DNA of 64,000 nucleotides, taken from assembly GCA_020850355.1 (NCBI GenBank), contig JADZEX010000014.1, forward strand, positions 62,001-126,000, given 5' to 3'. The stretch's first letter is position 1, and each line of letters opens with the position of its first letter. The position numbers were made by a program, and so were the translations under genes. The notes under the pieces are model-generated. The model made no database searches. It was not told the origin of the DNA and was given only the letters and a program-made list of their open reading frames with translations. Positions 2,715 through 41,031 of the stretch are shown here, one piece after another. This DNA is from Fimbriimonadaceae bacterium. GTDB lineage: Bacteria; Armatimonadota; UBA10988.

Positions 2715-2728
2715 ACGGCACCTCGCGG

Positions 2729-3166: not shown

Positions 3167-3186
3167 GCTGCTCGCTCCCACCACGC

Positions 3187-3226: not shown

Positions 3227-3238
3227 ACCGCGGCGCTG

Positions 3239-4036: not shown

Positions 4037-4186
4037 ACTCACCTCCGAGCCCATCAACCAGGCCCGCGGCGGGTGTAGCACAGCCCCCCACCGCCGTCAA
4101 CCCCGGCGGCCCTGGTCGCCGCCTGCATGGCCCGCCCCGGCGGCCCCCGCCAGCGACCGCGGCCGACCCGACTCGCGCGGCGGCCC

Positions 4187-4216
4187 TTGACAGACTGCGA
4201 ACAAATGTTTGATACT
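4187..4216 (+). promoter_or_regulatory. sigma70-type promoter with embedded LexA-box-like palindrome
   Basis: TTGACA at 4187-4192 and GATACT at 4211-4216 are separated by 18 nt. The spacer holds CGAACAAATGTTTG (4198-4211), which matches 12 of 14 positions of the Gram-positive-type LexA site CGAACATATGTTCG. A bound repressor there would block RNA polymerase. The first start codon downstream is the sigma-like gene at 4256. Confidence 0.6.
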
Positions 4217-4255
4217 GACTCGGGCGACCGGGCTGGTCGCGGTGGGAGAGGGACC

Positions 4256-5764: not shown

Positions 5765-6275
5765 CCGCCGCCACTCCGGCGCCCCGCGTGACGCGCCAGT
5801 CGGACCATACGCTGTGCAGCACGAAGGCGGCCATGCCGCAGGTGACGCCGATGTCGGCGACGTTGAAGTCGGGCCACACGAAGTTGTAGCGGGGCAGGTA
5901 GAAGTGGATGAAGTCCACCACCGCGCCGTCGCGGAACAGGCGGTCCAGCAGGTTGCCGGCGGCGCCGGCGGTGACCAGCGCCAACCCGTGCCGTTGGACC
6001 GCAGGCAAGACCAAGATGGCGCGCTGCCAGCAGACCACGGCCACCAGCGCGGCGCCGGCCACGGCGACGAACAGTAGCCGGGCGCCGGCGACATTGTGCA
6101 GCATCCCAAAGGCGGCGCCGCGGTTGTAGGTCAAGGTCAGGTCAAGGCAGCCCGGGACCACCGTGGCGTGGCGCCCGGGAGTCTGGACGGCGGTCAGCAC
6201 CGCCAGCTTGGTGAGCTGGTCCAGGACCAGCCAACCCACGGCCAGCGCGATGAACCAGCCCCGGCGGCTGGCCAA
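5748..6275 (-). CDS. lspA: lipoprotein signal peptidase (signal peptidase II)
   Basis: About 175 residues from a TTG at 6275 right after the upstream stop; a GTG at 6305 is the alternative. Four membrane segments are visible. Family motifs are present in order: WLVLDQLTK, YNRGAAFGML, GNLLDRLFR and VVDFIHFYL followed by FNVADIGV; the Asp of GNLLDR and the Asp of NVADI are the aspartyl catalytic pair. It cleaves the signal peptide of diacylglyceryl-modified prolipoproteins at the inner membrane. It sits between the DksA-type gene and rluD in a tight minus-strand run. The start codon is the uncertain part. Confidence 0.92.
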   Translation of the reverse strand: MASRRGWFIALAVGWLVLDQLTKLAVLTAVQTPGRHATVVPGCLDLTLTYNRGAAFGMLHNVAGARLLFVAVAGAALVAVVCWQRAILVLPAVQRHGLALVTAGAAGNLLDRLFRDGAVVDFIHFYLPRYNFVWPDFNVADIGVTCGMAAFVLHSVWSDWRVTRGAGVAADAGPA

Positions 6276-6277
6276 GG

Positions 6278-6664
6278 CTAACCCGTTTCCAGCATCCGCT
6301 GGCACTCCACGCAGGTCGCCACCCATGGCATCCGCTCCAGGCGCGCTTCGGGCACCTCGCAGCCGCACATTTCGCAGATCCCGAAGGTGCCGTCGTCGAG
6401 ACGGTCCAGGGCGAGCTGGATCTGGGCCAGCGTCTGTTGCACGTTCTGGCCGTAGAGCTGGTCCTTCTCGCGCTCCGAGGCTTGCGCCGCGATGTCGGCG
6501 GGGACGTCGTCGGCGTCGGAGAAGCTCTCCAGCGAGTCCTTCGCCTGCCGCGACGACTCCGCCAGTTCGCGCTCGACGTTCAGCAGGCGCTCGCGCTCGG
6601 CTTCCAGCTCCTCCTGAAACCGCCGCAGCTCCAGGTCAGGCCGCATCACCGTTGGCTTACGCAT
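6278..6664 (-). CDS. TraR/DksA-type C4 zinc-finger protein
   Basis: 128 residues. An N-terminal coiled-coil (about 10-75, rich in Glu/Arg, LRRFQEELEAERERLL) precedes GTFGICEMCGCEVPEARLE and CVECQ, the four-cysteine zinc finger of the DksA/TraR family. In the family this binds the RNA polymerase secondary channel; the short type next to lspA is common in non-proteobacteria. The ATG at 6664 has GGAGG 8 nt upstream; more upstream in-frame codons belong to the rmlD shadow. It overlaps the rmlD end by 8 nt and precedes lspA by 2 nt, so the genes are likely co-transcribed. Confidence 0.88.
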   Translation of the reverse strand: MRKPTVMRPDLELRRFQEELEAERERLLNVERELAESSRQAKDSLESFSDADDVPADIAAQASEREKDQLYGQNVQQTLAQIQLALDRLDDGTFGICEMCGCEVPEARLERMPWVATCVECQRMLETG

Positions 6665-7559
6665 CGTCACCCTCCTCACCCTCAACCCAGCGGCCCGCGG
6701 TGCGAGCGAGATGCTCGGCGAGGGCCGCCGCGACGGGCCGCAGCGGCCGCTGGCCGGTTGCCGCCCACTTGGATCCGTCCAACACACTCCACTCCGGCCG
6801 CCACGCCGCAGCACCCCACGCCGCGCTGCTGACCGCGGTCAGAGGCACCGTCAGGCCGGCGGCCTGCAGCACCTCCTGGGCGAAGCTATACCATGTCGCA
6901 GCGCCCTGATTTGTCACGTGATAGGTGCCAAACGCCGCGTCGCCGGTCGCGAGTTCCAAACACGCCGCGGCGAGGTCGCGGGCGTAGGTGCGCTGGCAGC
7001 ACTGGTCGGCCACCACCCGCAGCGGCTGCCCCGCCCGCGCCCGCGCCAGGATGGCCGTCACGAAGCTCCGGCCGCCCTCGCCGAACAGTCCGGCCGTCCG
7101 CACGACGTAATGCGCCGGACAGAGCCGCTGGACCCACTGCTCGCCGCACTCCTTGCTGGCCCCATAGACGCTCCGCGGCGCCGTTGGGTCGGTCTCGCGA
7201 CACGGCTGGCCCGGGCGACCATCGAACACATGGTCGGTGCTGACGTGCAGCAACCGCAACCCGTGGGCCGCGCAGGCTGCCGCCAGGACCGCCGGGCCGA
7301 GGCCATTGGCGCGCACGGCAGCCGGTGCGGCGCGTTCCGCGCCGTCGACATCCGTGTAGGCGGCGGCGTTCAGCACCACCGTCGGTTGTGCCTGCTCCAA
7401 ACAGGCCGCCACCGCCGCCGCATCGCTGATGTCCAGCGCGGCGCGCGGCCGCGCACAGAGCGCCAGACCGTGCTGTGCCGCCACCGCCTGCACCGCCTGG
7501 CCCAGCAGGCCCGCCGCGCCAGTCAGGAGGATCCGCGCGCCGGCCGCCGATTGGCCCAT
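6657..7559 (-). CDS. rfbD: dTDP-4-dehydrorhamnose reductase
   Basis: 300 residues, extended short-chain dehydrogenase fold. Motifs: GAAGLLG at the N-terminus for NAD(P) binding, NAAAYTDVDGAE, STDHVFDG and YGASKECGE with the catalytic Tyr and Lys. The family reduces dTDP-4-dehydrorhamnose to dTDP-L-rhamnose, for cell-surface polysaccharide. The ATG at 7559 has GGAGG 7 nt upstream. It is the first gene of the minus run rmlD, DksA-like, lspA, rluD. RmlA, B and C are not in this window. Confidence 0.9.
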   Translation of the reverse strand: MGQSAAGARILLTGAAGLLGQAVQAVAAQHGLALCARPRAALDISDAAAVAACLEQAQPTVVLNAAAYTDVDGAERAAPAAVRANGLGPAVLAAACAAHGLRLLHVSTDHVFDGRPGQPCRETDPTAPRSVYGASKECGEQWVQRLCPAHYVVRTAGLFGEGGRSFVTAILARARAGQPLRVVADQCCQRTYARDLAAACLELATGDAAFGTYHVTNQGAATWYSFAQEVLQAAGLTVPLTAVSSAAWGAAAWRPEWSVLDGSKWAATGQRPLRPVAAALAEHLARTAGRWVEGEEGDDA

Positions 7560-7661
7560 GCTGCCCTCCGAGATCGCCAGACTGCGGCCCTCGACAATCA
7601 ACGACGGCGCGCCGGGCGTGGTTCCCTGGTTCCGCCAGGCGGTCGTGGCATTACCGTTGCC

Positions 7662-7691
7662 TTGACGCGCCCCGGCGCCGAATGCTACGAT
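7662..7691 (+). promoter_or_regulatory. promoter for the lpxD/murB run
   Basis: TTGACG (7662-7667) and TACGAT (7686-7691) with an 18-nt spacer, 9 nt before the ATG of the first gene of a four-gene overlapping run. This would give a very short leader. Confidence 0.6.
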
Positions 7692-7700
7692 TCCTGCCCG

Positions 7701-8780
7701 ATGAGCCACCTCTTGCTCGGGGCGCTGCTGCTGGCGGCCTCGCCGGCCGCACCCAGCGCCACGGTCGGCTACCTGGACCTGGCCGCCGCGCTGACCCGCC
7801 TGGCTGGCCCGGGCGCGCAGCAGCTCGACGACCGCGCCGCCGCGCTGCGCCGGCTGGCCGCGTCGTTGGCGGCGCCCGACGTCCCGCCGCCGCCGAACGC
7901 CGAGGCCTGGCGCCAGGATCTGACGCCCTTGGCGAGCAGCGCGGAGCCGGGCGACGCCGGCCTGGAGCTGCAGCTCCTGCGGCAGGGGCTCGACGCCCAG
8001 ATTCGGCGGGCTCGCGAACGCGAGCGCGCCTTCCAGGCCGCGGCGCTGAGCGGCGAGCTGGAGGCGGCCCGCCTCGCAGCCCGCGAGACGCGGCTGCTGT
8101 GGCAGCAACTGCTGGCGCTCCAGCAGCGCTACGAGCGGTTGCGGCTGGAACTCGCCGAACGCGCTGGCGCGCCCGGCTCGCGGGAGGTCGACGGCGCGCT
8201 GTTCCGGCGACGGTTGCTCGACAGCGCCACTGACGCGCTGACCGCCTGGCGCGCCGAACAGGACGGCGCGCAGCTCAGCCGGGCGCGGCGCGCGCGCGCG
8301 GTCGCCCTGGAGTCCACCCTGGAGTCGGCCGCCGCCGAGCTGGAACGCCTCGGCGAGCGGCTGCTGGCGCGCCGGGAGGCCGCGCTGGCGACCGCGGCGG
8401 CGGACCGCCAGGAGACCCTCGCCACGGCCCAGGCAGCGCTCCACGGCGCCATCGACCTGCGGCTGGCGGGCTGGCAGAGCCGCCTGCCGCAACGCGTCGA
8501 GGAGGTCGCCGCGCGGCTGGAGCAGCAACGGCAGGCCTGGCTCGAGGGCGCCGCGGCGCTGAGTGCAGCCGCCACCCGACTGCGGGTCGGCGACCCGCTG
8601 GCCCGCCGCGACGAGGCCTTGGCCTGGTTGCGCGTCGCCAGCCGGCGGTTGCGGCTCGACCTGCGACTGGAGCCGCAGGCCGGCCTGCCCGACCTCACCG
8701 CGCCCGTGCTGGAGCTGGTCTTGGAGTTGATGGCCGACCCGGCCCTGTTGGCGCCATTTCAGGAAGTGGAACTGCCATGA
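7701..8780 (+). CDS. exported coiled-coil protein, possibly OmpH/Skp-like
   Basis: 359 residues. A signal peptide is visible (SHLLLGALLLAASPAAP), then VGYLDLAAALTRLAG, which recalls the mature start of OmpH/Skp chaperones, followed by almost continuous Arg/Glu/Ala-rich heptad helix to the C-terminus. The ATG at 7701 is preceded by a promoter; no Shine-Dalgarno site is obvious. The stop overlaps lpxD by 4 nt. In many diderms an ompH/skp gene precedes lpxD, which supports an outer-membrane chaperone role. It is about twice the length of Skp, so homology is only suggested. Confidence 0.6.
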   Translation: MSHLLLGALLLAASPAAPSATVGYLDLAAALTRLAGPGAQQLDDRAAALRRLAASLAAPDVPPPPNAEAWRQDLTPLASSAEPGDAGLELQLLRQGLDAQIRRARERERAFQAAALSGELEAARLAARETRLLWQQLLALQQRYERLRLELAERAGAPGSREVDGALFRRRLLDSATDALTAWRAEQDGAQLSRARRARAVALESTLESAAAELERLGERLLARREAALATAAADRQETLATAQAALHGAIDLRLAGWQSRLPQRVEEVAARLEQQRQAWLEGAAALSAAATRLRVGDPLARRDEALAWLRVASRRLRLDLRLEPQAGLPDLTAPVLELVLELMADPALLAPFQEVELP

Positions 8781-9820
8781 AGTTGTCCGCCGTTGCGGTG
8801 CTCCTGGAGGGCACCGCCAGCGCCGCACCCGAGCTCGAGGTGCGGGGCCTCAACACTCCCGCGACCGCCGCCGCGGGCGAGCTGGTGGTTGCCTTCGACG
8901 ACGCCGCCGTGGCGCTGGCCGAGGCGGGCCCCTGCGCCGCGGTGGTCGTGCCGCGGGGCGCCGCGTGCGGCAAGCCGCACATCGCCGTGGCCGATCCGCG
9001 CCGGGCGCTGGCCCGGCTCTTGGTGGCCTTCGCCCCGCCGCCGCCGGCGCCGCGCGGGGTGCACCCGCGGGCCCTGGTGGATCCCAGCGCGACGCTCGGC
9101 GAGGGCCTTAGCATCGGGCCAGGCGCCGTGATCGGGGCCGGCACCGCCGTCGCCGACGGCTGTCGGATCGGCGCCAACACGGTGGTTGGTGAGCACTGCT
9201 CGCTGGGGCCCGACTGCGTGCTGCACCCGAACGTGACGCTCTACGATCACTCCCACCTGGGCAGCCGGGTGGTGGTCCACGCCGGCACCGTGATCGGGGC
9301 CGATGGCTTCGGCTACCAGCATGACGGGCAGGCTCACCAGAAGGTGCCGCAGTTGGGTGGGGTGCAGATCGACGACGACGTCGAGATCGGTGCCAACAGC
9401 ACCATCGACCGCGCCACCCTCGGCTTCACGCGGATCGGTGCGGGCAGCAAGATCGACAACCTGGTGATGGTCGGCCACAACGTCCAGCTTGGCCGGCAGG
9501 TGCTGCTGGTGGCGCAGTGCGGCATCGCCGGCAGCAGCGTGCTGGAGGATGGGGTGGTCCTGGCGGGCCAGGCCGGGGTGGCCGACCACCTGCGGATTGG
9601 TGCCGGGACGGTCTTGCTGGCGCAGTGCGGGGTGATGCGGGACGTGCCGGCCGGATCGCGGCTGGGCGGCTCGCCGGGCTTGCCGCAACATGAGTGGTTC
9701 CGGCAACTGGCGGCGATCCGCCGCCTCGAACAGACCGGGCGTCGCGTCAGTCGGCTCGAGGCCGCCGTCGACGAGTTGCGCGCGGGCGGGCAAGGAGCTG
9801 GGTGCGGTGAGTCGTCTTAG
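8777..9820 (+). CDS. lpxD: UDP-3-O-acylglucosamine N-acyltransferase
   Basis: 347 residues. An N-terminal uridine-binding-like domain (about 1-95) is followed by left-handed beta-helix hexapeptide repeats (about 100-310: PSATLGEGLSIGPGAVIG and similar) and a C-terminal helix. MVGHNVQ carries the catalytic His of the family; GADGFGYQ is also family-specific. It transfers the second acyl chain in lipid A synthesis, which implies an outer membrane. It overlaps the upstream coiled-coil gene (ATGA) and the downstream secreted-protein gene by 14 nt. Confidence 0.93.
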   Translation: MKLSAVAVLLEGTASAAPELEVRGLNTPATAAAGELVVAFDDAAVALAEAGPCAAVVVPRGAACGKPHIAVADPRRALARLLVAFAPPPPAPRGVHPRALVDPSATLGEGLSIGPGAVIGAGTAVADGCRIGANTVVGEHCSLGPDCVLHPNVTLYDHSHLGSRVVVHAGTVIGADGFGYQHDGQAHQKVPQLGGVQIDDDVEIGANSTIDRATLGFTRIGAGSKIDNLVMVGHNVQLGRQVLLVAQCGIAGSSVLEDGVVLAGQAGVADHLRIGAGTVLLAQCGVMRDVPAGSRLGGSPGLPQHEWFRQLAAIRRLEQTGRRVSRLEAAVDELRAGGQGAGCGESS

Positions 9821-11636
9821 TCTGTTCGCCGTCACGGCCTGGGCGCTGCTGACGGCACCCCTGGCGGCGGTCACCACGCTGCGCTGCGAAGTCTCCACCA
9901 CCGCCGGCCCGCCGGCCGCGGCGTTGGTCAGCCTCAACGGGGTCCCGACCATTCGGCTCCGCCACGAGCAGTCGGCGGTGGCGCGGCAACTCGCCGCCGA
10001 GGTGGTGGCACGGGTCCAAGAGGCGGCCGAGGCCGGCCCGACGCCGGCCCAGATCCGGACCGCCGCGGCGCCCGGCGGCGAGGTGGCGGTGCTGGCCGGC
10101 GCGGTGCGGCTGGTGACGGCCAGCGTCGCCCAGGGCAAACTGGCGCGGCAGACGCCGGACTCGCTGGCCCAGACCTGGGTCGCAGCGCTGCGCCGGGCGT
10201 TCGCCACGACCTACCTCAGCGTGCCGGGCAGCGGGCTGCTGATCGCGCTGGGCGAGACGGCCACCGTCGCGGTGCGCGGCTACCCGGCGGGCGGGCCGTT
10301 CAAGTGCAGCGGGCTGGCCAGCAGCCTGGCCCGGGTTCAGCCGGCAGACGACTGGAGCCGCCTGAGGGTCAGCGGCCGGGCGGTCGGCCGGGGTGAGCTG
10401 ACGCTGCAACGTGGCCACGCCCGGTTGACGTTGCCGGTCGCGGTGAAGAAGCGGGCGGGCAGCCTGCCGGGCCAGATCAGCGTTGAGGTGACCGGGCGCG
10501 AGGTTCCCGGCACGATGCTGCGCGAGGCCGTCTGGGCGCAGTTGATGGCCGTCGCGAAGCTCGAACCCGGGGCCCGGATGCGGTTCGATGTGCCCGACGA
10601 TCCGTCCCTGCCCCCACCGGGCGGGCGCGGGCAAGTGGCCTTGGCGGTGGCCATCGAGGGGCCGGACTACCTGCCGTTCCAGAGCCGCGTGCTCGCCAAT
10701 GTGCAGGTCTCCGACTGGCCGGACGCACCGGCCGAGTGGCTGCTGGTGAGCAACGATCCCGAGAGCGTGCGGGGTACCCGGCTGCTGCTGCGCGGACGGC
10801 TGCGCAAGGAGCAGCGCACGCGGCTGCTCTACCATCACCTCAACGCCACCGGGCAGCCGCTGGTGCTGGAGGTGCGGCTGCTCAACCACCACGACCGGCC
10901 GGCCCGAATCCATGTCCGCGACGCCTTTGCCGGACCGTCGCCGAATCCCGAAGTCGCTGGCCATGTCTGTGCGCGGCGCTACTGGCAGCAGCGCCTGGCC
11001 GGGCAGGGCTACTGGCTGCGCCTGCCGCCGCACACCGCCTGGACCATCACCGGCGTGACCTGCGGGCTGAACGAGACGCTCAGCGGGCTCAGCGAGTTTT
11101 GGCCGGCCGAACTGGATGACCTGGAGGTGCAGGTCGTCGCTACCAGCGGCGCCCCAGTGCGTGGGCCGCGCGGCATCGCGGCCGCCGCCACCGCGCCCTT
11201 CTCGGACATGTTCCTGTTTGCCAAGCCCGACTTCAGCGCCACCTACGCCTACCGCCCGGGCGGCATGTACGCCTTCATGAACGTCGGCCGTGACCCGCTG
11301 AAGAGCGTTCTCGGCCCGCCGCTGATGGGCAACTACGGGGCAGTCTACGATCTCAACCTGACCTTCGAGAACAGCGCCGAGCGCGAGCAGCGCTTCGAGC
11401 TCGTCTTCAGCGCCGACGGCGGCGCAGCCATCGGCACCGTGGTGGTCAACGGGCGGATCTACGAAACCAAGCTGGTCCGGGGCGGCGAGCAGGAGCGGTT
11501 GCTGGATCTGTTACTGCCGCCCGGTGGGCAGCAGGTCTACCGCATTCGGACGCTGCCGGAGTCGGGCAGCAACTACCCACTGCGGATTGTCGGCCGGCCC
11601 TACACGGTGGGCTGGGCCGGGCGCGGCAAGCCGTGA
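9807..11636 (+). CDS. secreted protein of unknown function
   Basis: 609 residues from a GTG at 9807 with AAGGAG 9 nt upstream. A signal peptide is evident (SRLSLFAVTAWALLTAPLAA). The rest is beta-rich with no recognised family; notable segments are PGEEL-type strand patterns and a conserved-looking SATYAYRPGGMYAFMNVGRDP in the C-terminal third. It is sandwiched between lpxD and murB with overlaps at both ends (14 nt and a GTGA overlap), so it is likely an envelope or periplasmic protein made with them. An earlier ATG at 9690 would be lpxD shadow. Confidence 0.7.
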   Translation: MSRLSLFAVTAWALLTAPLAAVTTLRCEVSTTAGPPAAALVSLNGVPTIRLRHEQSAVARQLAAEVVARVQEAAEAGPTPAQIRTAAAPGGEVAVLAGAVRLVTASVAQGKLARQTPDSLAQTWVAALRRAFATTYLSVPGSGLLIALGETATVAVRGYPAGGPFKCSGLASSLARVQPADDWSRLRVSGRAVGRGELTLQRGHARLTLPVAVKKRAGSLPGQISVEVTGREVPGTMLREAVWAQLMAVAKLEPGARMRFDVPDDPSLPPPGGRGQVALAVAIEGPDYLPFQSRVLANVQVSDWPDAPAEWLLVSNDPESVRGTRLLLRGRLRKEQRTRLLYHHLNATGQPLVLEVRLLNHHDRPARIHVRDAFAGPSPNPEVAGHVCARRYWQQRLAGQGYWLRLPPHTAWTITGVTCGLNETLSGLSEFWPAELDDLEVQVVATSGAPVRGPRGIAAAATAPFSDMFLFAKPDFSATYAYRPGGMYAFMNVGRDPLKSVLGPPLMGNYGAVYDLNLTFENSAEREQRFELVFSADGGAAIGTVVVNGRIYETKLVRGGEQERLLDLLLPPGGQQVYRIRTLPESGSNYPLRIVGRPYTVGWAGRGKP

Positions 11637-12541
11637 GTCTCGCGGCTCGGCTGGCCGACCTGGCGGCCCGCGACGGGTCCAGCCTGAGCGCCGAGCAGCC
11701 GCTCGCCGAGCTGACCACCTGGCGGATCGGCGGCCCGGCCCAGTGGGTGCTGCGCCCCCGCAGCCGCGCTACGCTGGTCGCCGCGGTGGCCCTCGCCCGT
11801 GCCGCGGGACAGCGGGTCTGGGTGATGGGCAACGGCTCCAACCTGCTCTGCCCCGACGCCGGTGTGCGGGGGCTGGTCCTCAACCTGACCGGCGCCCTGG
11901 CCGGGGTGCAGATCAGCGGCGACCAGGTAATCGCCGAGGCGGGCGCCTTCCTGCCGAAGCTGGCCCGCGACACGCTGGCCGTCGGGCTGCGCGGTCTGGA
12001 GTGCGTCGGCGGGGTGCCCGGCACCATCGGCGGTGGCGTGGTGCTGAACGCCGGGATCCCCGAGGCGACCCTGGGCCAGGTCGTCGAAAGGGTCGACCTG
12101 CTCGACGAGCAGGGCGAGACCTTCACGTTGCCCGCCGCGGAGCTGCACTTCGCGCATCGCAGCAGTCTGCTGCAACAGCGGCCCTGGCTGGTGCTGGCGG
12201 CCACCCTGCGCCTGCAACCGGGCGACCGCGCCGCCGGCGAGGCCAAGCTGGCGGAGCACCTCGCCTACCGCCGGCGGACGCAGCCGCTCAAAGAGGCAAC
12301 CTGCGGCAGCGTCTTTCGGCGCCCGCCAGGCGACTTCCCCGGCCGCGTGATCGAAATCTGCGGCGGCAAAGGCCTGCGGGTCGGCGGGGCCGAGGTGTCG
12401 AGCCTGCACGCCAACTGGATTGTCAACCGCGGCGGCGCCACGGCGGCCGATGTGCAGGCGCTGATCGCCGAACTGCAGCGGCGGGCCCGCGCGCAGTGCG
12501 GGATTGAGCTGGTGCCGGAGGTGATCGTCTGGGAGCCCTGA
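11633..12541 (+). CDS. murB: UDP-N-acetylenolpyruvoylglucosamine reductase
   Basis: 302 residues from a GTG at 11633 that overlaps the preceding stop (GTGA). FAD-binding motifs TTWRIGGPA, GNGSNLLCPDAG and GGVPGTIGGGVVLNAG are present, then YRRRTQPL and GSVFRRPPG, which carries the Ser of the active-site loop, and a C-terminal GGAEVSSLHANWIVN. It makes UDP-N-acetylmuramate for peptidoglycan. The usual NP after GSVFR is replaced by RPPG. It ends the envelope run and converges with the BNR gene, 4 nt apart. Confidence 0.93.
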   Translation: MSLAARLADLAARDGSSLSAEQPLAELTTWRIGGPAQWVLRPRSRATLVAAVALARAAGQRVWVMGNGSNLLCPDAGVRGLVLNLTGALAGVQISGDQVIAEAGAFLPKLARDTLAVGLRGLECVGGVPGTIGGGVVLNAGIPEATLGQVVERVDLLDEQGETFTLPAAELHFAHRSSLLQQRPWLVLAATLRLQPGDRAAGEAKLAEHLAYRRRTQPLKEATCGSVFRRPPGDFPGRVIEICGGKGLRVGGAEVSSLHANWIVNRGGATAADVQALIAELQRRARAQCGIELVPEVIVWEP

Positions 12542-12545
12542 CCTT

Positions 12546-13631
12546 TCAGCCGACCAGCCGCACGGCGTAGACCGGTGGCAGGTGGCCGTTCAGTAGGTGC
12601 CAGGTGTCGCCAGCGTCGGCGGTGGTCCAGACATTGCCGGTGGTCGAGCCGAAGGCCAGCGTGCAGCCGTCGGCGGCGACGTCCAGGGCATGGCGGTAGA
12701 CCAGGTCGTAGGCCTCCTGCTGCGGCAATCCCTGGCGCAAGACCTCGAACCACCGCCCGCCATCGCGTGAGCGGGCGACCACCAACTGCGCCTCGACCGG
12801 CACCCGGAACTGGTCCTTGATGGCCGGGATGTACCACCCCACCGCGGCATCGCGCGGGCTCACCGCGACCGCGAAGCCGAACCGCGAAGGGGGCACCTCC
12901 AAGGCGGTCCAGGTGGCCCCGCCATCGGTGCTGCGGTAGCTGTCGCAGTGGTGGGTCGCCCAGAGCACGGCGGGCTGGTCGAGACAGCGCACGATCCGGT
13001 GGGGGTCCTGCAGGTTGAGGTAGGTCGCCTGCTCCGGCGGCAGGAAGTCGGCGCTCATGCCTTCGCCGCGCAGCGTCCAACTGGCGCCATCGTCGGCAGT
13101 CAGCCAGACCCCGCCGCAGGAGATGCCGATCACGACGTCGGCCGGGTTGGCCGGGTTGGGGCAGATCGAGTGGATGCCCGGCTCGTCGAGCCCGCCGCCG
13201 AACCACTCGCGCCGCTCGGGGCGGTCCCAGAGCGCGCGGTTGAGCTGCCAGCTCTCGCCGCCGTCGGTGCTGCGGAACAGCCCGCCCGGCGCCGTGCCAG
13301 CCCACAAATCGCCGGCCGCGGTGCCCGCCGGTTCGAGCGCCCAGAGGTAGCTCAGCGTCCACGGGTTGCGGTCGTCGGGGTCGTCCGGCTTCACCGGATA
13401 GGCCGGCGCGGCGACCTCCTCCCAGGTGGCGCCCTGGTTGGCGCTGCGGTGCAGCTTGACTCCAAAGTGGCCCAACGCCGAGGCGGCGTACCAGCGGCCG
13501 TCGCGCGGATCGACCAGCAGTTGCGACACCGGGTCGCCGAGGAACGAGACGCGTTCCAGCTTCCAGCCGGCGGCCGTCGGCCGGTAGTCGAACAGCCCCT
13601 TGCGGGTTCCCAGCAGCAAGTGCTGCGCCAT
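12546..13631 (-). CDS. BNR/sialidase-like beta-propeller protein
   Basis: 361 residues, no signal peptide. It begins with LLLGTRKGLFDY, characteristic of a family annotated exo-alpha-sialidase, and contains several BNR boxes of the S-x-D-x-G-x-T-W type (RSANQGATWEE, RSTDGGESW, RSTDGGATW, TTADAGDTW). A hydrolase function is not shown; the catalytic Arg triad and Tyr of true sialidases cannot be assigned. It follows the MoaD/ThiS-like gene by 9 nt and is the last gene of the operon starting at 18491. The lack of a secretion signal suggests a cytoplasmic role. Confidence 0.8.
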   Translation of the reverse strand: MAQHLLLGTRKGLFDYRPTAAGWKLERVSFLGDPVSQLLVDPRDGRWYAASALGHFGVKLHRSANQGATWEEVAAPAYPVKPDDPDDRNPWTLSYLWALEPAGTAAGDLWAGTAPGGLFRSTDGGESWQLNRALWDRPERREWFGGGLDEPGIHSICPNPANPADVVIGISCGGVWLTADDGASWTLRGEGMSADFLPPEQATYLNLQDPHRIVRCLDQPAVLWATHHCDSYRSTDGGATWTALEVPPSRFGFAVAVSPRDAAVGWYIPAIKDQFRVPVEAQLVVARSRDGGRWFEVLRQGLPQQEAYDLVYRHALDVAADGCTLAFGSTTGNVWTTADAGDTWHLLNGHLPPVYAVRLVG

Positions 13632-13640
13632 CAGCGTTCC

Positions 13641-13910
13641 CTATCCGCCCGAGAGGGCCTGAAAGATGTGGATCTGGTCGGTCGGGCCGACCGGGTCGGT
13701 CAGTCGCCCGCGGTCGCGCACGCGGCGACCGTTGACGAACAGCTCGACGTGCTGCCGGAGCTGGCCCTGGTCGTCGAGCAGATAACCCCGCAACCGCGGC
13801 TCGCGGTCACACAGCGCTTGCACCGCCGCGGCGACGGTCTCGCCTGGCACCGTCTGCGGCGGACACGCCACGTGGCGCTGCACCGCCTTCGCAAGATGAC
13901 ACACCGGCAT
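13641..13910 (-). CDS. MoaD/ThiS-family ubiquitin-like sulfur carrier
   Basis: 89 residues ending in IFQALSGG, the C-terminal Gly-Gly that is adenylated and thiocarboxylated in MoaD/ThiS proteins. The middle has the beta-grasp pattern VELFVNGRRV with DQIHIFQAL. The ATG at 13910 has AGGGA upstream. No E1-like enzyme (MoeB/ThiF) lies in this window, so the pathway served is unknown. It lies between a radical SAM gene and a BNR-propeller gene in a tight operon. Confidence 0.8.
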   Translation of the reverse strand: MPVCHLAKAVQRHVACPPQTVPGETVAAAVQALCDREPRLRGYLLDDQGQLRQHVELFVNGRRVRDRGRLTDPVGPTDQIHIFQALSGG

Positions 13911-13918
13911 CAGCGTCC

Positions 13919-14932
13919 CTACTCGCCGAAGCGACCCGGCAGCCGCTCGCCACAACGCGGACAGCCGCCGTCTTGGACAATAGACTGACGCATCCGATAT
14001 TGCGCTCGTGTGATCAGCGGCTCGCCGCACCGCGCGCAGGACGTGTCCCAGCCCTCGCCGGTGGCCGTGGCGTCGCTGTAGACGTAGCGCAGACCGGCCT
14101 CGCGCGCCGCCTGGCGAGCGGCCAGCAGTGCTTCCCGCGGGGTCGGCGGCAGGTGGCGCAGCGCGTGGTCGGGGTGGAAGCGGTTGAGGTGCCAGGGCAC
14201 GTCCGGCCCGAGGTGGCGTAACAGCCAGTCGGCGGTCCGGCGCAGATGGTCCGCGGAGTCGGTCAGAGTTGGGATCACCAGCGTCGTCACCTCCACCCAC
14301 ACGCCAGCCTCGTGGTACCGTCGCAGCGCCGCCAGGACCGGCTCCAGGGGCGCGCCGGTGAGCTGTTGGTGAACCGCCGGGTCGAACGCCTTGAGGTCGA
14401 CATTCACCGCCAGCAGGCAGGGCAGAATGGCCGCCTGGGGCTCCGGCTGCAGGCAGCCGTTGGTCTTCCAGACCACCGCCAGCCCGGCCTGGCGGGCGGC
14501 GACAGCGACGTCGAGGGCGTACTCCAACCAGACCCCCGGTTCGCTGTAGGTCGCGGCGATGGTGCCACAGCCGGCAGCCGCCGCGCGCTGCACCAGCTCG
14601 TCCGGCGCCACGAACTCGGCCGCCGGGCCGCGGCCAGCTTTCGGGGCCTGCGAGACCAGCCAGTTTTGGCAGTAGCGGCAGCTCAGGTTGCAGCCGCCGG
14701 CCGCGAAGCTGAAGGTCGCTGCGCCGGGGCGCACATGGTACAGGAACTTGCGCTCGATCGGCGCTGGCGCGGCGACCGCGAGCTGCCCGTAGGCAGTGCT
14801 ATACAGCGCGCCGCCATGGGCCACCCGGACCCCGCAAGTGCCCTGCTGGCCATCGCCCAGGAGACATTCCAGCGGGCACAGCCGACAGACCAGGTGGTCG
14901 CCCTGCGGCTCCCACCAGCGGGCGGGCGTCAT
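13919..14932 (-). CDS. AmmeMemoRadiSam-type radical SAM protein
   Basis: 337 residues. N-terminal cysteines CRLCPLECLLGDGQQGTCG match the start of the AmmeMemoRadiSam radical SAM family; GGCNLSCRYCQNW gives the CxxxCxxC [4Fe-4S]/SAM motif. A C-terminal zinc-ribbon-like part has CARCGEP and CPRCGERL. The PflA-like fold suggests an activating or protein-modifying enzyme; the substrate is unknown. The AMMECR1 and Memo partners that name the system are absent here. The ATG at 14932 lies 5 nt after the ispH stop. Confidence 0.87.
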   Translation of the reverse strand: MTPARWWEPQGDHLVCRLCPLECLLGDGQQGTCGVRVAHGGALYSTAYGQLAVAAPAPIERKFLYHVRPGAATFSFAAGGCNLSCRYCQNWLVSQAPKAGRGPAAEFVAPDELVQRAAAAGCGTIAATYSEPGVWLEYALDVAVAARQAGLAVVWKTNGCLQPEPQAAILPCLLAVNVDLKAFDPAVHQQLTGAPLEPVLAALRRYHEAGVWVEVTTLVIPTLTDSADHLRRTADWLLRHLGPDVPWHLNRFHPDHALRHLPPTPREALLAARQAAREAGLRYVYSDATATGEGWDTSCARCGEPLITRAQYRMRQSIVQDGGCPRCGERLPGRFGE

Positions 14933-34489: not shown

Positions 34490-34918
34490 TCAGTCCAGCG
34501 GGTTGACCCACTCCAGGCCAGCGAAACGGCTGAAGTCGGAGTCGCTGGAGGCGAGCGTAGCGCCATGCTCGATGGCGAGAGCTGCCAGGTGGGCATCGGA
34601 GACCAGGTTGCCTCCCGCGCCGGTCTGCAGCAACAGATCGGCAAGTACCTGCCAATGCCGCGAAGTCGGGACCAGCACGGGGGTAACGGGCTGGGTCAGC
34701 CAGCCACGCACAATCGCGACGGCAGACAGGATCGACAAGGGTCGTTCATAGACTCGGGGATTGGTCCCAATCCGAACGGAAGCTGTCAGCACCGGCCATG
34801 AGAGACCGACGCGCTCACCGCCCGCCAACAAGGACTCCCACCAGTCCGAGGCTGTGCGGTGCCACGGACCCGTCGAGTCCACCGCGTAAAGCAGCAGGTT
34901 GGCATCCACCAGGATCAC
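34490..34918 (-). CDS. VapC-type PIN-domain toxin
   Basis: 142 residues. MILVDANLLLYAVD (Asp5), the acidic residue in the middle region, and DAHLAALAIEHGATLASSDSDF supply the acidic PIN-domain metal site. PIN toxins cleave tRNA or mRNA. The ATG overlaps the antitoxin stop by 4 nt. Converges with the GH32-like gene. Confidence 0.88.
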   Translation of the reverse strand: MILVDANLLLYAVDSTGPWHRTASDWWESLLAGGERVGLSWPVLTASVRIGTNPRVYERPLSILSAVAIVRGWLTQPVTPVLVPTSRHWQVLADLLLQTGAGGNLVSDAHLAALAIEHGATLASSDSDFSRFAGLEWVNPLD

Positions 34919-35160
34919 GTTGTCGGCTCGCCATCGAGGTAAGCGAGCACTTCGTGGATGTTGTCGAGGTTGATCCCTGGACGAAGCCCGAGACTCTGCA
35001 CGGGGCTGCGACCGGCGGTTGGTTCGGTGCAGGTCAAGGCGACGACCAGCCCTTCGCGCAAGGCGTCGCCCAGCACGACCCTGAGCGGCAAGCGGCGTTG
35101 CGCCGCGAGCTCGCGGGCTTGCCGCAGCAGCTCATCATCGACCTCGATCGTGGTGCGCAT
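34915..35160 (-). CDS. VapB-type ribbon-helix-helix antitoxin
   Basis: 81 residues. RTTIEVDDELLRQARELAAQ is the start of a ribbon-helix-helix fold; the C-terminal half (about 45-81) should wrap the toxin, ending GLRPGINLDNIHEVLAYLD. It represses its own promoter in most such pairs. The toxin gene overlaps its stop. Confidence 0.85.
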   Translation of the reverse strand: MRTTIEVDDELLRQARELAAQRRLPLRVVLGDALREGLVVALTCTEPTAGRSPVQSLGLRPGINLDNIHEVLAYLDGEPTT

Positions 35161-35244: not shown

Positions 35245-36273
35245 TCATTCAGCCGGCCACCGCCCTGCTGCCAGCTCGCGGTAGACCGCGGTGAGTTCGT
35301 CGAACGGCTGGCGGTAGTAGCCCTCGTACGGCCGGCCGTCGCGGAGCGTCTGGTAGAACGCGCCAGCCCGACCGTCGTGGGCGGCCGCGCGGGAGTTTTC
35401 GTTCACTATGTACAGATCGGAGCTGAAGCCGCCGAGCTGCTCCGGACGGGCGGCGTCGCGGATCAGCCGCACGCCGAGCCGGGTCCGACCGGCCGGCAGC
35501 GGCATGTTGCGCTCGGCGTCGTCGTAGCCAGGGAAGCCGCCGCGCTCGGTCGGGCGGTAGTCCCAGGCGACCACGATCAGGTCCCACACTACCGCGCGCG
35601 GCGCACCGTTGCGGGCGGTCACCCAGTCCCGCAGCAGGGCTGCGCCGAACCCCGGTTGCAGCCAATCCTCGACGTTGCGCGTGCCGTGACAGAAGCCGCT
35701 CCACGTGTCTTGCACCGCGCCGACGAAGGGCGGTCCGAGCGGTTCCGACGGCTGCAGGCCGACCCGCAGCAGCCCCTCCGGGTAGCGTGCGGCCAGCGTC
35801 GCCACGGCCGGGCCCTGCTCGCGGTCGGCGTAGATATCGAAGACCGCCAGCCGGTGCGGGTTGATCTCCTGCGCGCAGAAGGCCACCCACTCCGCCAGCT
35901 CCGCCGGGCTGAAGACCGGCGTGCCGGCCGGGTCGTACATCCGCAGCAGCACGGTCGGGACCAGTTCCAGGCCCGCTGGCGCCGCGGCACGCCACCAGCG
36001 GAAGACCTCCCGCGCGGTCGCCAGTGGGAGCTCCTGGTGGTAGATCAGATACAGGCGATTGGCGGCGTACGGGCCCGCCAGCAGGCGGACCGCCCGGGTC
36101 ACCTCGGCCTCCGTCGGCGGGCTGCTGGCGGGGTAGTCGGGACCGAAGTAGCCGCGCTGGGTGAACAGACCCAGCGAGGCGTGGACCCAATAACTGCGCT
36201 CCAGCGCGGCGGGGTCGGGAGCGGCGAGAGCGGTGACCGGCAGGCAGAGTAGTAGTCGGAATGCCCAACCCAT
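35245..36273 (-). CDS. secreted protein of unknown function (TIM-barrel-like)
   Basis: 342 residues, not recognised. Signal peptide MGWAFRLLLCLPVTALA; then an alternating pattern of strands and helices with LYLIYHQELP, LELVPTVLLRMYD, RLAVFDIYADREQG and AVVWDLIVVAWDYRPTERGG, suggesting a glycosidase-like barrel. GGAG precedes the ATG at 36273. It lies between vapBC and the AAA/TOPRIM pair and is overlapped for its full length by the extended TOPRIM reading frame. Confidence 0.65.
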   Translation of the reverse strand: MGWAFRLLLCLPVTALAAPDPAALERSYWVHASLGLFTQRGYFGPDYPASSPPTEAEVTRAVRLLAGPYAANRLYLIYHQELPLATAREVFRWWRAAAPAGLELVPTVLLRMYDPAGTPVFSPAELAEWVAFCAQEINPHRLAVFDIYADREQGPAVATLAARYPEGLLRVGLQPSEPLGPPFVGAVQDTWSGFCHGTRNVEDWLQPGFGAALLRDWVTARNGAPRAVVWDLIVVAWDYRPTERGGFPGYDDAERNMPLPAGRTRLGVRLIRDAARPEQLGGFSSDLYIVNENSRAAAHDGRAGAFYQTLRDGRPYEGYYRQPFDELTAVYRELAAGRWPAE

Positions 36274-37102
36274 GCGCGTTCTCCAGTGCTGGCGCCCGCC
36301 GGCTTAACGGGGCCACGGTCCCCAGCAGATCCGCCAGGAACGCCCGCAGCGCCGCGACCGCCGGCAGACCGCCGCCGTGCTGCACCCAGCCGCAATCGTC
36401 CAGGGCCGCGACGATGGGCTGCAGTGGCTTCAGGATGCTGCCCATCACCGCGACCTGCGCCTTGCGGCGCCCCGCAGGTGTGGCCCGCAGTTCGGCATAG
36501 CAGCCAGCGGCGGCCTCGTCCCGCTGTAGCCACTGCCCGATGGACTCGTCCGCCCACTCTCGCAGTCCCGGAAAGGCCAGTTGGCCCAGCGGCAGGAGCA
36601 GTTCCTCCAGAGCTCCGGGCTGGCCGAGACCTGGCAGCGCGAAGGTCCCGACCCGTGGTGAGCTGTCCCGGTTCACCACGTCGGGCGTTGCCGGCCGAGC
36701 GCCGAAGACCTTTGCCAGGAGATCCGCATAGCCGGCAAACCGCTGCACAGGATCGGCCTCGTCAGCATCGTAGACCAGGCCGACCGCCGTGGGGTTGGCG
36801 TCGACGTTCTGCAACGCGTCGAAGTCGGTGCGGAGAAGCCGGCCGAAGCCGTCCAGGCCATTCGCGTTGCGGACCACCACCACATGGTCCGCTCGCAGCC
36901 AGAAGACCGGTGCCGGCACCGCGAAGCGGTCGATCCTCTCGGAGACTGGCCACTTGAAGCTGCTCCTCAGCCAGTCCGCGGCCCAACCCGGGCGCTGAGC
37001 TACGGACGTCGCCCTGGCGAACCCAAACTGGTCCCGTAGTAGGGCGCCGATGAAGGTCGCATCCAGGACGCCTTCGGTGGCCAGGTAGACGAACTCGCTC
37101 AT
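35249..37102 (-). CDS. TOPRIM/DUF3226-like partner of AAA ATPase; frame runs through next gene
   Basis: The frame is 617 codons, but only the first ~266 (to about 36304) look like a protein of this family; the rest is an off-frame reading of the secreted-protein gene. ATEGVLDATFI (TOPRIM Glu), VGLVYDADEADP (DxD), and GQPGALEELLLPLG resemble DUF3226/OLD-type TOPRIM proteins. Its ATG overlaps the ATPase stop (ATGA), so they form a unit. A TAA lies at 36306-36304 in another frame, just where the domain should end; a single-base indel (or assembly error) would remove the run-on. Function inferred: nuclease-like partner of the ATPase in phage defence. Confidence 0.6.
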   Translation of the reverse strand: MSEFVYLATEGVLDATFIGALLRDQFGFARATSVAQRPGWAADWLRSSFKWPVSERIDRFAVPAPVFWLRADHVVVVRNANGLDGFGRLLRTDFDALQNVDANPTAVGLVYDADEADPVQRFAGYADLLAKVFGARPATPDVVNRDSSPRVGTFALPGLGQPGALEELLLPLGQLAFPGLREWADESIGQWLQRDEAAAGCYAELRATPAGRRKAQVAVMGSILKPLQPIVAALDDCGWVQHGGGLPAVAALRAFLADLLGTVAPLSRRAPALENAHGLGIPTTTLPAGHRSRRSRPRRAGAQLLGPRLAGSVHPARLLRSRLPRQQPADGGRGDPGGPPAGGPVRRQSPVSDLPPGAPTGDRAGGLPLVACRGASGPGTGPDRAAADVRPGRHAGLQPGGAGGVGGLLRAGDQPAPAGGLRYLRRPRAGPGRGDAGRTLPGGAAAGRPAAVGTARTALRRRGARHVERLLSRHAQRRGLAATGVRRSPAAGLGDRPQRCAARGSVGPDRGRLGLPPDRARRLPWLRRRRAQHAAAGRSDPARRAADPRRRPSGAARRLQLRSVHSERKLPRGRPRRSGWRVLPDAPRRPAVRGLLPPAVRRTHRGLPRAGSRAVAG

Positions 37103-38133
37103 CGCGGGTCGACCCCCATCTCACGCAGTTCGGCGAGCTGGTCTGGTCCGTAGCGCTTGACCTCCATCCGGTCCGCCCGGCGCCGCAAGCGGTAGCTGGC
37201 GACATCAAGCGACCCCGCGGCGGCCGCGGCGATGAACGCATCGATGGCTTCCAGGCTGTGGGTGGTGGCACAGATCTGCACATCGACGTCGCGCGCCGCA
37301 ATCACCAGACGCTCAAACAGGTTGCCCAACGCCCCGGTGTGGATGGTGGCCACCAGTTCGTCGATCAGCAGCAGGCCGCCGCTGGCCCGAGCCAGAGCGA
37401 GAGACAAAGCAACCGCCCGGCGCATGCCATCCCCGAAGGTGGTCAAGTCGGCGACACCGCGAGTGCGGTGGTTGACCCGGACGCTCGATCCGCCGCCGGC
37501 AGTGCTGACATCGAGGCTCAGCGCCTCGGGGTCAAACAGCGTTAGCATCTCCTCCGCCAAGCTCTTGTTGCCATAGTCGACAGCGTGACTAAGGTGCAGG
37601 GCCATCGCTCTCGACGAGCGATGTGTGCTGGGCGTCACAGTGAAACAACGGTAGGCCGGGACGGCTTGGTTGAAGCTGGCGGGCGCGTCTCGCCGGAATA
37701 CCAGATCATGTTTGGTGTTCCCGCGACCGTCGTCTACCACTGCCTCCACTCGCAGTGTCATATCGTCGCTGCGGTCTGACTCCCAACTCAGGCTCGCCAG
37801 TGCGCTAGCTTGCATGGTTCGCTCAGTGGCGTCTAGAGTGCCGCTTACCTTGAGTGGCGGCGTCTGCTTCGGGCCGTCCTCCACTGCTAGCATCCCCGCA
37901 GCTGGAAACAACGACCAGAGCCCTTCGACCATCGGCAGATCGGCATCGCGCTGCCTGGCCACTTGGATCCACTGCGTGGGGTCAAACGGACGCAGCAGCA
38001 GGCTGATCGCCTCCAGAATCGTAGTCTTGCCAGTGTTGTTGCTGCCAACGATCAGGTTGACCGGCGCCAGATCGGGGAGATCAATGTCAAGCAGGCCCCG
38101 GAACTTGACCAGACTGAGGTTGGACAGGATCAT
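37099..38133 (-). CDS. AAA/SMC-like ATPase of OLD/PARIS-like type
   Basis: 344 residues. GSNNTGKTT (about 30) is the Walker A, TTFGDGMRRAVAL resembles an ABC-type signature, LLLIDELVATIH is the Walker B with Glu, and CATTHSLEAID the H-loop. This arrangement is that of AAA_15/AAA_21 ATPases that pair with TOPRIM proteins in OLD-type defence systems. It is cytoplasmic. Local base composition is lower in GC (36/60 and 37/60 in two sampled lines versus about 75% nearby), consistent with recent transfer. Coupled to the TOPRIM gene. Confidence 0.8.
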   Translation of the reverse strand: MILSNLSLVKFRGLLDIDLPDLAPVNLIVGSNNTGKTTILEAISLLLRPFDPTQWIQVARQRDADLPMVEGLWSLFPAAGMLAVEDGPKQTPPLKVSGTLDATERTMQASALASLSWESDRSDDMTLRVEAVVDDGRGNTKHDLVFRRDAPASFNQAVPAYRCFTVTPSTHRSSRAMALHLSHAVDYGNKSLAEEMLTLFDPEALSLDVSTAGGGSSVRVNHRTRGVADLTTFGDGMRRAVALSLALARASGGLLLIDELVATIHTGALGNLFERLVIAARDVDVQICATTHSLEAIDAFIAAAAAGSLDVASYRLRRRADRMEVKRYGPDQLAELREMGVDPR

Positions 38134-38264: not shown

Positions 38265-38291
38265 AGGACGTGGCGTGGGCGCGGCGAAGCC
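38265..38291 (+). promoter_or_regulatory. two-block leader element, exact N14 copy
   Basis: AGGAC (38265-38269), 14 nt, GCGAA (38284-38288), followed by GCC. Ends 22 nt before the GTG of the beta-helix gene. Confidence 0.6.
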
Positions 38292-38310
38292 CCCCGCCCG
38301 GAGCCCTGTC

Positions 38311-41031
38311 GTGACAGCACTCGCCCTGACCATCTTGCTCAGCACCAGCCTCGCCGCGCCGGAGTTCTATGTCGCGCCGACCGGTGCCGACACCAACGCC
38401 GGCACGCTCGCGGCGCCTTTCGCCACGCTTGAGAGAGCGCGTGACGCGGTGCGGGGCACCGGCGGGACCGTGGTGCTGCGGGGTGGGGTCTATCGCCGCA
38501 GTGCGACGCTGGCGCTGACCGCGGCCGACTCCGGGGTCACCTGGGCGGCCTATCCCGGCGAGCAGCCGCGGCTGCTGGGCGGTCTGCCGCTGCCGGCGGC
38601 GGCGTTTCAGCCCGTGCGCGACGCGGCCGTCCTGGCCCGGTTGCCACAGGAGTCGCGCGGCCAGGTGCTGGTCGCCGACCTGGCGGCACTGGGGGTCACC
38701 GACTACGGCAAGCTGGAGAGCTACGGCCACGGCCGGCCCGCGCCGACGCCGATTCCGGAGCTGTTTGTGAACGGCCGCGCGCAGACCTTGGCGCGCTATC
38801 CGAAAGATGGCTGGCTGGAGCTGCGGAAGGTCCTCGACCGGGGCTCGGTCTGGGGCAGCAACGTGCCGGGCGAGCCGGAGCTGCGCGAGAAGCCCGACCG
38901 CGGGGCCATCTTTGAGGTCGACGACCCGCACCTGGCTCGCTGGGCCACCGCGCCCGACCTGTGGCTGTTCGGCTACTGGTGGTGGGACTGGGCCGACCAG
39001 GCGGTGCAGGTAGCCGCCATCGACCTCGCCAAGAAGACCATCCAGACCGTCCAGCCGCACGCCTACGGCTACCGCGCCGGCGGGCGCTACTACGCCTACA
39101 ACCTGCTTGAAGAGCTGTCCGCGCCGGGCGAGTACTTCCTCGACCGCGCCACGGGGCGGCTCTACCTGCTGCCCGCGGTGCCGCTGGCGGGGGCCGACAT
39201 CACCTTCTCACAGCTCACCACCCCGCTCCTGACCATCGACGGCGCCAGCAACCTGACGGTCCGCGGGCTGACCTTCGAGTGCAGCCGGGTCGGGGCGCTG
39301 CGGCTGACCAACTGCCGCGCCAGCGTCGTCCGCGGCTGCACCTTCCGGCAACTCGCCTCGACCGCCGTCAATGTCAACGGCGGCGAGCGCTGTACGGTCC
39401 GCGGCTGCGACATCTACGACGCCAACGGGGGGATCACCCTGACCGGTGGCGACCGCGCCAAGTTGCAGCCGGCGGGGCATGTCGCCGAGAACAACCACTT
39501 CTGGAACTATGCGCGCATCAACCGGACCTACATCTCGGCCCTGGCGTTGCACGGCGTGGGGCTGCGGGCCAGCCACAACCTGATTCACGGCGCGCCGCAC
39601 ATGGCCATCGGATTCGGCGGCAACGACCTGGTGATGGAGTACAACGAGATCTACGACGTCTGCCGCGAGAGCAACGATGCCGGGGCCATCTACACGGGCC
39701 GCAACTGGTCGATGCGCGGCAACGTCATCCGGTACAACTACCTGCATGACATCCACGGCCTGGACCGCAAGGGTGCCGCGGGCATCTACCTCGACGACTG
39801 CTTCTCCAGCGCCGACGTGATCGGCAATGTGCTGGTCGACATGAAGGGCCTGCCCTTCCTGATCGGCGGCGGCCGCGACAACGTGATCGAGGACAACGTG
39901 ACGCTGCGCACTGGCGCCTTCCACCTCGACGACCGTGGCCTCGGCTGGGGCAAGCGCGGCGCCGCGCCGGATGGGGAGCTGACCGTCAGCCTCAAGCAGA
40001 TGCCCTACCAGAGCGAGCTCTGGCGGCAGCGTTACCCGCAGTTGGCGGGCATCCTAGACGACAACCCTGGCGCCCCGAAGGGCAACGTGGTGCGGCGCAA
40101 TCTGTTCGTGCAGTCGCCCACGCCGCAGATCGCTGGCCCGGCGCGGCAGTACGGCAACATCGCCGACAACTGGGTCGCGGCCGAGGATCCAGGGTTCGTC
40201 AACCTGGCCCTGGGCGATCTGAGGCTGCGGCCGGACGCGGTGGCGTTGCAGCGCATCCCGGGCTTCCGGCCTCCGCCGTTCGAGCAGATGGGGCTGCGCG
40301 TCGACGAGGATCGACCGACCCTGCCGCCGGCGTTGCCCGCGGCGTACCCGGCGGGTGGGGCGTTCTGCCAGGAGCTGGCGGTCCAGGTCGGCTGCCGCAC
40401 GCCGGGCGCCGTGCTGCGTTACACGCTCGACGGCAGCCCGCCGACCAGCGCCTCGCCGGTCTGCCCGCAGCCGTTGACGCTGACTCGCAGCGGCACGTTG
40501 ACGGTGATCGCGCAGGTCGGGACGCAGCTCAGCGAAGCGGCACGCTACGAGTTCCGGGCCTACGCCCTGGGTGCTGCCGACCCGCTGCCGGTGAGCCTGC
40601 TGCCGACCCTGGCGGCCGATGGCTACAGCGAGCCAAAGGTCAACACCAACATGGCCGGCCGACCGATCAGCCTGCGCGGTGGGGCGTACCCGACGGGCTT
40701 GACGTTGCACCCGAAGGAGCAGCCCGGCGGTGGCCGCGCGACGGCCGTCTACGCCCTCGACGGCACGCTGCGGCGGGCCACGCGGCTGCGGGGCACGGTC
40801 GGCGTGGAGGACACCAGCGGCGCCAATGGGTCGGTGGTCTGCCGCGTCGAGCTGCTGCGCGACGGCCAGTGGGCGCCCGCCTTCGACAGCGGAGTGCTGT
40901 GCGGCGGGCAGGCCACCAAGGAGCTGGACGTGTCGTTGACCGGCGCGACGCAGATCCGGCTGGTGGTGACCGACGCTGGCGACAACATCCACAGCGACCA
41001 CGCCGCCTGGGGCGGGCTGCGGCTGGAGTGA
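38311..41031 (+). CDS. secreted right-handed parallel beta-helix protein with NPCBM
   Basis: 906 residues from a GTG at 38311 with GGAG upstream. Signal peptide TALALTILLSTSLAAP; then EFYVAPTGADTNAGTLAAPF, a start common to bacterial pectate-lyase-like helix proteins; a right-handed parallel beta-helix through ~620; a CHB_HEX_C_1-like module with YTLDGSPPTS (~710); and a C-terminal NPCBM-like carbohydrate-binding module (~770-906, LTLHPKEQPGG, SDHAAWGGLRLE). Polysaccharide lyase or hydrolase role is inferred. It is divergent from the ATPase gene and convergent with the phosphoesterase gene. Confidence 0.85.
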   Translation: MTALALTILLSTSLAAPEFYVAPTGADTNAGTLAAPFATLERARDAVRGTGGTVVLRGGVYRRSATLALTAADSGVTWAAYPGEQPRLLGGLPLPAAAFQPVRDAAVLARLPQESRGQVLVADLAALGVTDYGKLESYGHGRPAPTPIPELFVNGRAQTLARYPKDGWLELRKVLDRGSVWGSNVPGEPELREKPDRGAIFEVDDPHLARWATAPDLWLFGYWWWDWADQAVQVAAIDLAKKTIQTVQPHAYGYRAGGRYYAYNLLEELSAPGEYFLDRATGRLYLLPAVPLAGADITFSQLTTPLLTIDGASNLTVRGLTFECSRVGALRLTNCRASVVRGCTFRQLASTAVNVNGGERCTVRGCDIYDANGGITLTGGDRAKLQPAGHVAENNHFWNYARINRTYISALALHGVGLRASHNLIHGAPHMAIGFGGNDLVMEYNEIYDVCRESNDAGAIYTGRNWSMRGNVIRYNYLHDIHGLDRKGAAGIYLDDCFSSADVIGNVLVDMKGLPFLIGGGRDNVIEDNVTLRTGAFHLDDRGLGWGKRGAAPDGELTVSLKQMPYQSELWRQRYPQLAGILDDNPGAPKGNVVRRNLFVQSPTPQIAGPARQYGNIADNWVAAEDPGFVNLALGDLRLRPDAVALQRIPGFRPPPFEQMGLRVDEDRPTLPPALPAAYPAGGAFCQELAVQVGCRTPGAVLRYTLDGSPPTSASPVCPQPLTLTRSGTLTVIAQVGTQLSEAARYEFRAYALGAADPLPVSLLPTLAADGYSEPKVNTNMAGRPISLRGGAYPTGLTLHPKEQPGGGRATAVYALDGTLRRATRLRGTVGVEDTSGANGSVVCRVELLRDGQWAPAFDSGVLCGGQATKELDVSLTGATQIRLVVTDAGDNIHSDHAAWGGLRLE

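Follow-up and report, generated by a model that had tools for sequence, protein, structure and literature searches.

A divergent PDC-M38 pair of an OLD-family ATPase and a DUF3226 TOPRIM protein as a candidate defence system of a Fimbriimonadaceae bacterium

The window, a stretch of 64,000 nucleotides from the genome of a Fimbriimonadaceae bacterium, contains a pair of genes that encode an OLD-family ABC ATPase and a DUF3226 TOPRIM protein. The pair is a divergent member of PDC-M38, a candidate anti-phage family already catalogued by PADLOC. It is likely that the two proteins constitute a sensor/effector system, in which the ATPase (M38A) is combined with a TOPRIM nuclease (M38B), and, as judged from the sequences, a function in defence is probable. 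The pair is probably an ordinary accessory defence candidate of this genome that was acquired by transfer. The original prediction suggested that the genes might represent another two-gene OLD lineage; the lineage is separate and distinct from PARIS, but it had been listed by PADLOC before, as PDC-M38, and is thus not a new one.

Gene arrangement and extent of the partner gene

The window comes from a 6.67 Mb assembly in 117 contigs. The positions of the two genes and of their motifs are listed in Table 1. The end of the ATPase gene (37099) is joined to the ATG of the partner gene at 37102 by a 4-nt ATGA overlap, and the genes are read in two different frames. The GC content is 63.6% in the ATPase gene and 69.4% in the partner gene, compared to 71.3% in the whole window; a lower GC content had been noted before, but the value of about 60% given for it was too low. 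Similarly, the GC3 of the ATPase (0.76) and partner (0.83) genes is below the 0.88-0.94 of the neighbouring genes other than VapBC.

Table 1. Features of the ATPase-TOPRIM pair in the window, and the BREX operon of a verrucomicrobial relative (L059, positions in that locus)
Feature	Position	Strand	Evidence
PDC-M38A-like OLD/ABC ATPase, 344 aa, ATG start	37099..38133	-	ORF; AAA_21 6e-21; PDC-M38A 2e-47
Walker A GSNNTGKT, residues 30-37	38023..38046	-	G30, G35, K36, T37 invariant in 35 relatives
OLD/ABC signature segment FGDGMRRA, residues 233-240	37414..37437	-	G234, G236 invariant in 35 relatives
Walker B LLLIDE, residues 254-259	37357..37374	-	D258, E259 invariant in 35 relatives
H-loop TTH, residues 290-292	37258..37266	-	H292 invariant in 35 relatives
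DUF3226 / PDC-M38B-like TOPRIM partner, conserved part ~residues 1-265	36304..37102	-	DUF3226 6.9e-8; conserved motifs; AF2; GC3 shift; homologue ends
TOPRIM motif 1, E10-G11-x-x-D14	37061..37075	-	E10 78/79, G11 78/79, D14 65/79 + 10 E
TOPRIM DxD motif D112-A113-D114	36761..36769	-	D112 79/79, D114 68/79 + 7 E
G163-A-L-E166, putative metal-B glutamate (BpOLD E508 equivalent)	36605..36616	-	G163 78/79, E166 79/79; PMC6755086
K214, putative catalytic lysine (BpOLD K562 equivalent)	36461..36463	-	K214 78/79; PMC6755086
Open continuation of partner frame, judged non-coding for the pair	35249..36303	-	GC3 ~0.54 in partner frame; overlaps conserved gene in another frame
L059 operon: brxC; pglX; M38A; M38B; pglZ; brxL	45-3005; 5367-7979; 7989-9110; 9116-9937; 9939-12500; 12519-14567	one strand

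A transfer into the genome would fit the reduced GC content and GC3 values of both the pair and VapBC, together with the lack of close partner relatives in the searched genomes of the same family. A tblastn search with the partner against plasmid and phage collections gave no match, and no relative was found in viral contigs searched with a two-member alignment or in genome contigs searched with the partner alone. The genes flanking the pair are located on separate contigs in the family relatives, and no empty site could be defined from this comparison.

The partner gene was originally predicted to end at 36304. The TAA at this position is out of the partner frame, which continues without a stop codon until 35249 (617 aa). 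The GC3 of the partner frame is ~0.76-0.89 as far as ~36230 and ~0.53-0.6 beyond, where that of another frame climbs to ~0.9; past ~36250, the value for the partner frame has dropped from ~0.82 to ~0.54. Furthermore, partner homologues terminate at the equivalent of residue ~258-265. The overlapping open reading frame 35245-36273, which is on the same strand and encodes 342 aa, is itself a gene, because two relatives from the same family have homologues that are 58% and 52% identical to it. The drop in GC3, the lengths of the homologues, and the overlap with a conserved gene indicate that the partner ceases to be coding near 36300; on the same grounds, the 617-aa frame was rejected as a genuine fusion protein. 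A small sequence difference or an assembly error would give the same picture of an absent stop codon near 36300 as its true loss. The product of the 35245-36273 gene has a signal-peptide-like start, is without a Pfam match, and sits between the M38 pair and VapBC. VapBC, which had been described as lying beside the pair, is nearby (34490-35160) but parted from it by this gene. One of the VapBC products matches PIN (5.9e-14), and the other matches VapB_antitoxin with an E-value of 8.9e-5, slightly below the cut-off; the GC3 of VapBC is under that of the neighbours, as is that of the M38 pair.

Motifs and predicted structures of the two proteins

The ATPase matches Pfam family AAA_21 and contains the Walker A, signature, Walker B and H-loop motifs named in the original prediction, with key residues that are invariant or almost invariant in 35 relatives. 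The AF2 model of the ATPase has a pLDDT of 88 and a pTM of 0.89, and resembles the heads of Rad50/SMC proteins and PtuA of Septu and retrons, according to Foldseek. Residues 3-48 at the N-terminus match the RecF model (4.6e-9). The comparison with PADLOC families, including AriA as originally recommended, identified PDC-M38A as the best match (2e-47), followed by AbiLi (2.2e-27) and AriA (2.7e-20).

DUF3226, whose score exceeds the curated cut-off, is the sole Pfam family found on the partner, in agreement with its initial description as DUF3226-like and different from the DUF4435 partner of PARIS. The TOPRIM-like glutamate (E10) and DxD (D112/D114) recognized earlier are present and largely conserved in 79 relatives. 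They belong to a full OLD-like catalytic set of E10, D14, D112/D114, E166, and K214, which is largely invariant among these relatives. Conservation of the putative catalytic EG..D, DAD, G..E, and K motifs exceeds chance by far. In BpOLD, an OLD protein of class 2, the set is formed by E400, E404, D455, D457, E508, and K562, and two-metal catalysis is backed by structure and mutants (PMC6755086). The partner residues were matched to those of BpOLD from their order and spacing rather than from a structural superposition (PMC6755086). Additionally, G82, which is placed after the second core strand, is kept in 78 of the 79 sequences. The glycine at position 158, in place of an aspartate, was considered as a possible active-site defect and dismissed, with aspartate, glycine, and asparagine occupying this column in 48, 10, and 9 of the 79 sequences, respectively.

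The AF2 model of the partner, calculated from a 50-sequence alignment, has a mean pLDDT of 91 and a pTM of 0.89. It starts with a strand (residues 3-9) and a helix (12-26), which are followed by an inserted segment, a second strand (73-79) and helix (85-99), a third strand (106-113) and helix (118-133), a strand formed by residues 150-156, and further helices. E10 follows the first strand and D112/D114 are positioned at the third core strand, which corresponds to the TOPRIM layout (PMC6755086). Thus, the strand-helix order and the positions of the motifs in the model bear out the TOPRIM fold that structure prediction was meant to check. The single significant PDB match in a Foldseek search with the model was 2p62 (7.4e-7), and no OLD or AriB chain was among the 50 matches listed; a search against viral models gave nothing significant. 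The entry 2p62, the uncharacterised protein PH0156 of Pyrococcus horikoshii, is also the only significant PDB profile match of the partner (4.9e-7), but is only 16% identical to it. Two DUF3226 proteins from the same phylum (G045:C1 and G211:C251) exceed the cut-off of Pfam OLD-like_TOPRIM, and the hhalign alignment of the DUF3226 profile with DUF4435 proteins has an E-value of 2.3e-6 over the E...DxD core. According to the motifs and the model, the DUF3226 partner can be classed as an OLD-like TOPRIM protein whose catalytic residues are conserved, and it is predicted to be a nuclease.

Family membership, distribution, and neighbourhoods

The pair shares with PDC-M38 the order of the genes, in which the ATPase is followed by a DUF3226 TOPRIM gene with an overlapping start. 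In contrast to the short M38B proteins, however, the window partner and those of its subclade contain additional residues inserted after the first helix and before the second core strand. The window partner falls below detection, with an E-value of only 0.014 for one PDC-M38B model over residues 139-226, the partners of its closest relatives in the subclade reach 3e-7 to 2.5e-14, and canonical DUF3226 proteins up to 2.8e-58. Divergent partners such as the M38B of the window thus escape the current PADLOC models. A literature search retrieved no report of anti-phage activity for PDC-M38 or DUF3226; most PDCs still await validation (PMC12988326).

The occurrence of DUF3226 in the phylum of the window is patchy (32 of 291 genomes). 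The ATPase gene is located directly upstream in 27 of the 30 DUF3226 loci of the phylum, and the remaining three are interrupted by a contig end. A scan of GTDB with the ATPase provided 80 loci. In 54 of these, including every member of the subclade in the set, M38B lies directly downstream, and a gap of -4 nt is the most frequent spacing; the loci that lack M38B are largely those with the poorest matches to the ATPase. A tree of 84 ATPases places the window protein in a clade of ten with a support of 96/92, in which some end branches are long (1.57 for the window) and the finer order is not firm. Complete partners in this clade have 253-282 aa. The clade includes members from Chloroflexota, Cyanobacteriota, Verrucomicrobiota, Bacillota, Pseudomonadota, Planctomycetota, and Electryoneota; the subclade of the window is sparse and scattered widely over phyla.

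The genome of the window contains a second, canonical PDC-M38 pair (L037 9028-11208; G000:C76), with a DUF3226 protein of 224 aa and its own ATPase upstream. Two M38 pairs, at 1200-3526 and 7974-9781, are located ~4.4 kb apart in Quadrisphaera granulorum (L062). At another locus (L098 1282-7867), a ~1981-aa open reading frame that includes an M38-like ATPase precedes a TOPRIM gene, and may represent a fusion with a large extra part. A candidate relative at L034 (G246, E=2e-4) was rejected as spurious, being without a TOPRIM by profile and without an ATPase alongside.

In a verrucomicrobial member of the window's own clade (L059), the M38 pair forms part of a BREX operon that spans positions 45-14567, and gaps of only 1-9 nt separate pglX, the M38 pair, and pglZ. 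This embedding supports a defence role. It agrees with published work, because OLD-ABC dyads linked to TOPRIM were reported as recurrent BREX companions in a 2026 survey (PMC12839542). The remaining clade members sampled have ordinary neighbours. Among 107 genes neighbouring M38 pairs, defence families are only scattered, and most of the sampled surroundings of M38 pairs do not qualify as defence islands. Thus, the context of homologues, which the original prediction proposed as a check on the defence reading, includes a BREX operon, but in most neighbourhoods sampled holds few defence genes. The neighbours of the pair in the window encode FAH, methyltransferase, GH32, beta-helix/NPCBM, and metallophosphatase proteins, in addition to VapBC, beyond which the window contains no defence island. 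The beta-helix/NPCBM protein encoded at 38275-41031 belongs to a strongly expanded family, with 29 matches in the genome and more than 40 in two family relatives.

Proposed function and alternative explanations

The ATPase fold and the TOPRIM set of E, E/D, DxD, E, and K residues are shared with OLD proteins of classes 1-3 (P2 Old, GajA, and retron-associated). There, however, they are part of one polypeptide, whereas the window has separate genes, without a GajB-type helicase or a reverse transcriptase alongside. The resemblance to AbiL (AbiLi/AbiLii) consists of AbiLi being the second-best PADLOC family of the ATPase, but the score of PDC-M38A is 66 bits above that of AbiLi, and the partner has no AbiLii match. 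In PARIS, a class 4 OLD system, AriB is held by a hexamer of AriA, and the recognition of Ocr frees AriB, which forms a dimer and cleaves tRNA-Lys (PMC11455837; PMC12409363). In Gabija, the nucleotide state of GajA gates its DNA-cutting TOPRIM (PMC12796447). By analogy, the M38 pair carries the parts for a PARIS-like or Gabija-like mechanism.

We propose that an oligomer of the ATPase would bind and restrain the TOPRIM nuclease until a phage cue shifts the state of the ATPase. Because of the BREX embedding, the cue may be an anti-restriction protein. The freed two-metal nuclease could cut host RNA (tRNA, as AriB does) or DNA (as other OLD proteins do), and the cleavage would result in abortive infection. 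Because the TOPRIM catalytic residues are conserved, point mutants would provide a direct test of the mechanism of the PDC-M38 candidate family. A bolder and doubtful extension is that the long-partner subclade constitutes a functionally distinct split OLD class, which would back up BREX in the way that PARIS backs up restriction. Its ATPase might sense anti-BREX proteins and unleash the TOPRIM nuclease, whose inserted segment would give it a substrate of its own.

A module for DNA repair or the cell cycle, similar to RecF-RecR or the archaeal OLD protein Cran1, is an unlikely alternative to a defence system. The N-terminus of the ATPase matches RecF, its fold resembles Rad50/SMC heads, few defence genes surround most M38 pairs, and Cran1, which belongs to class 5 of OLD proteins, has a non-defence role in cell-cycle progression (PMC12796447). 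However, the patchy presence in the phylum and the scatter over phyla in the ATPase tree argue against such a module, as do the two different copies within one genome, the nuclease active site, which appears complete by sequence, and the member embedded in BREX. It is quite improbable that the pair is instead a decaying remnant, in which the loss of a stop codon has left the partner with a non-functional 617-residue product. Although the open partner frame could mean a damaged gene, and the end branch of the ATPase is long, every catalytic residue is retained in both proteins, and the codon-position composition is coding-like across both genes and ceases to be so where the homologues end. Moreover, an assembly error near the gene end would look alike in a 117-contig assembly.

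The pair in the window shares with PARIS the two-gene plan, in which an OLD-type ABC ATPase is combined with a separate TOPRIM protein; among the named families matched by the ATPase, AriA ranks third, and the TOPRIM cores can be aligned by hhalign. Nevertheless, it is extremely improbable that the pair is a genuine PARIS system with a diverged partner: both PDC-M38A and AbiLi match the ATPase far better than AriA, and the partner belongs to DUF3226 rather than DUF4435 and matches no AriB model even at E=10. Furthermore, DUF4435 dyads with ATPases of their own and a PARIS-like layout exist apart from the M38 pairs in the same phylum (L135-L139), where DUF4435 was detected in 8 of the 201 genomes sampled (E<=0.001).
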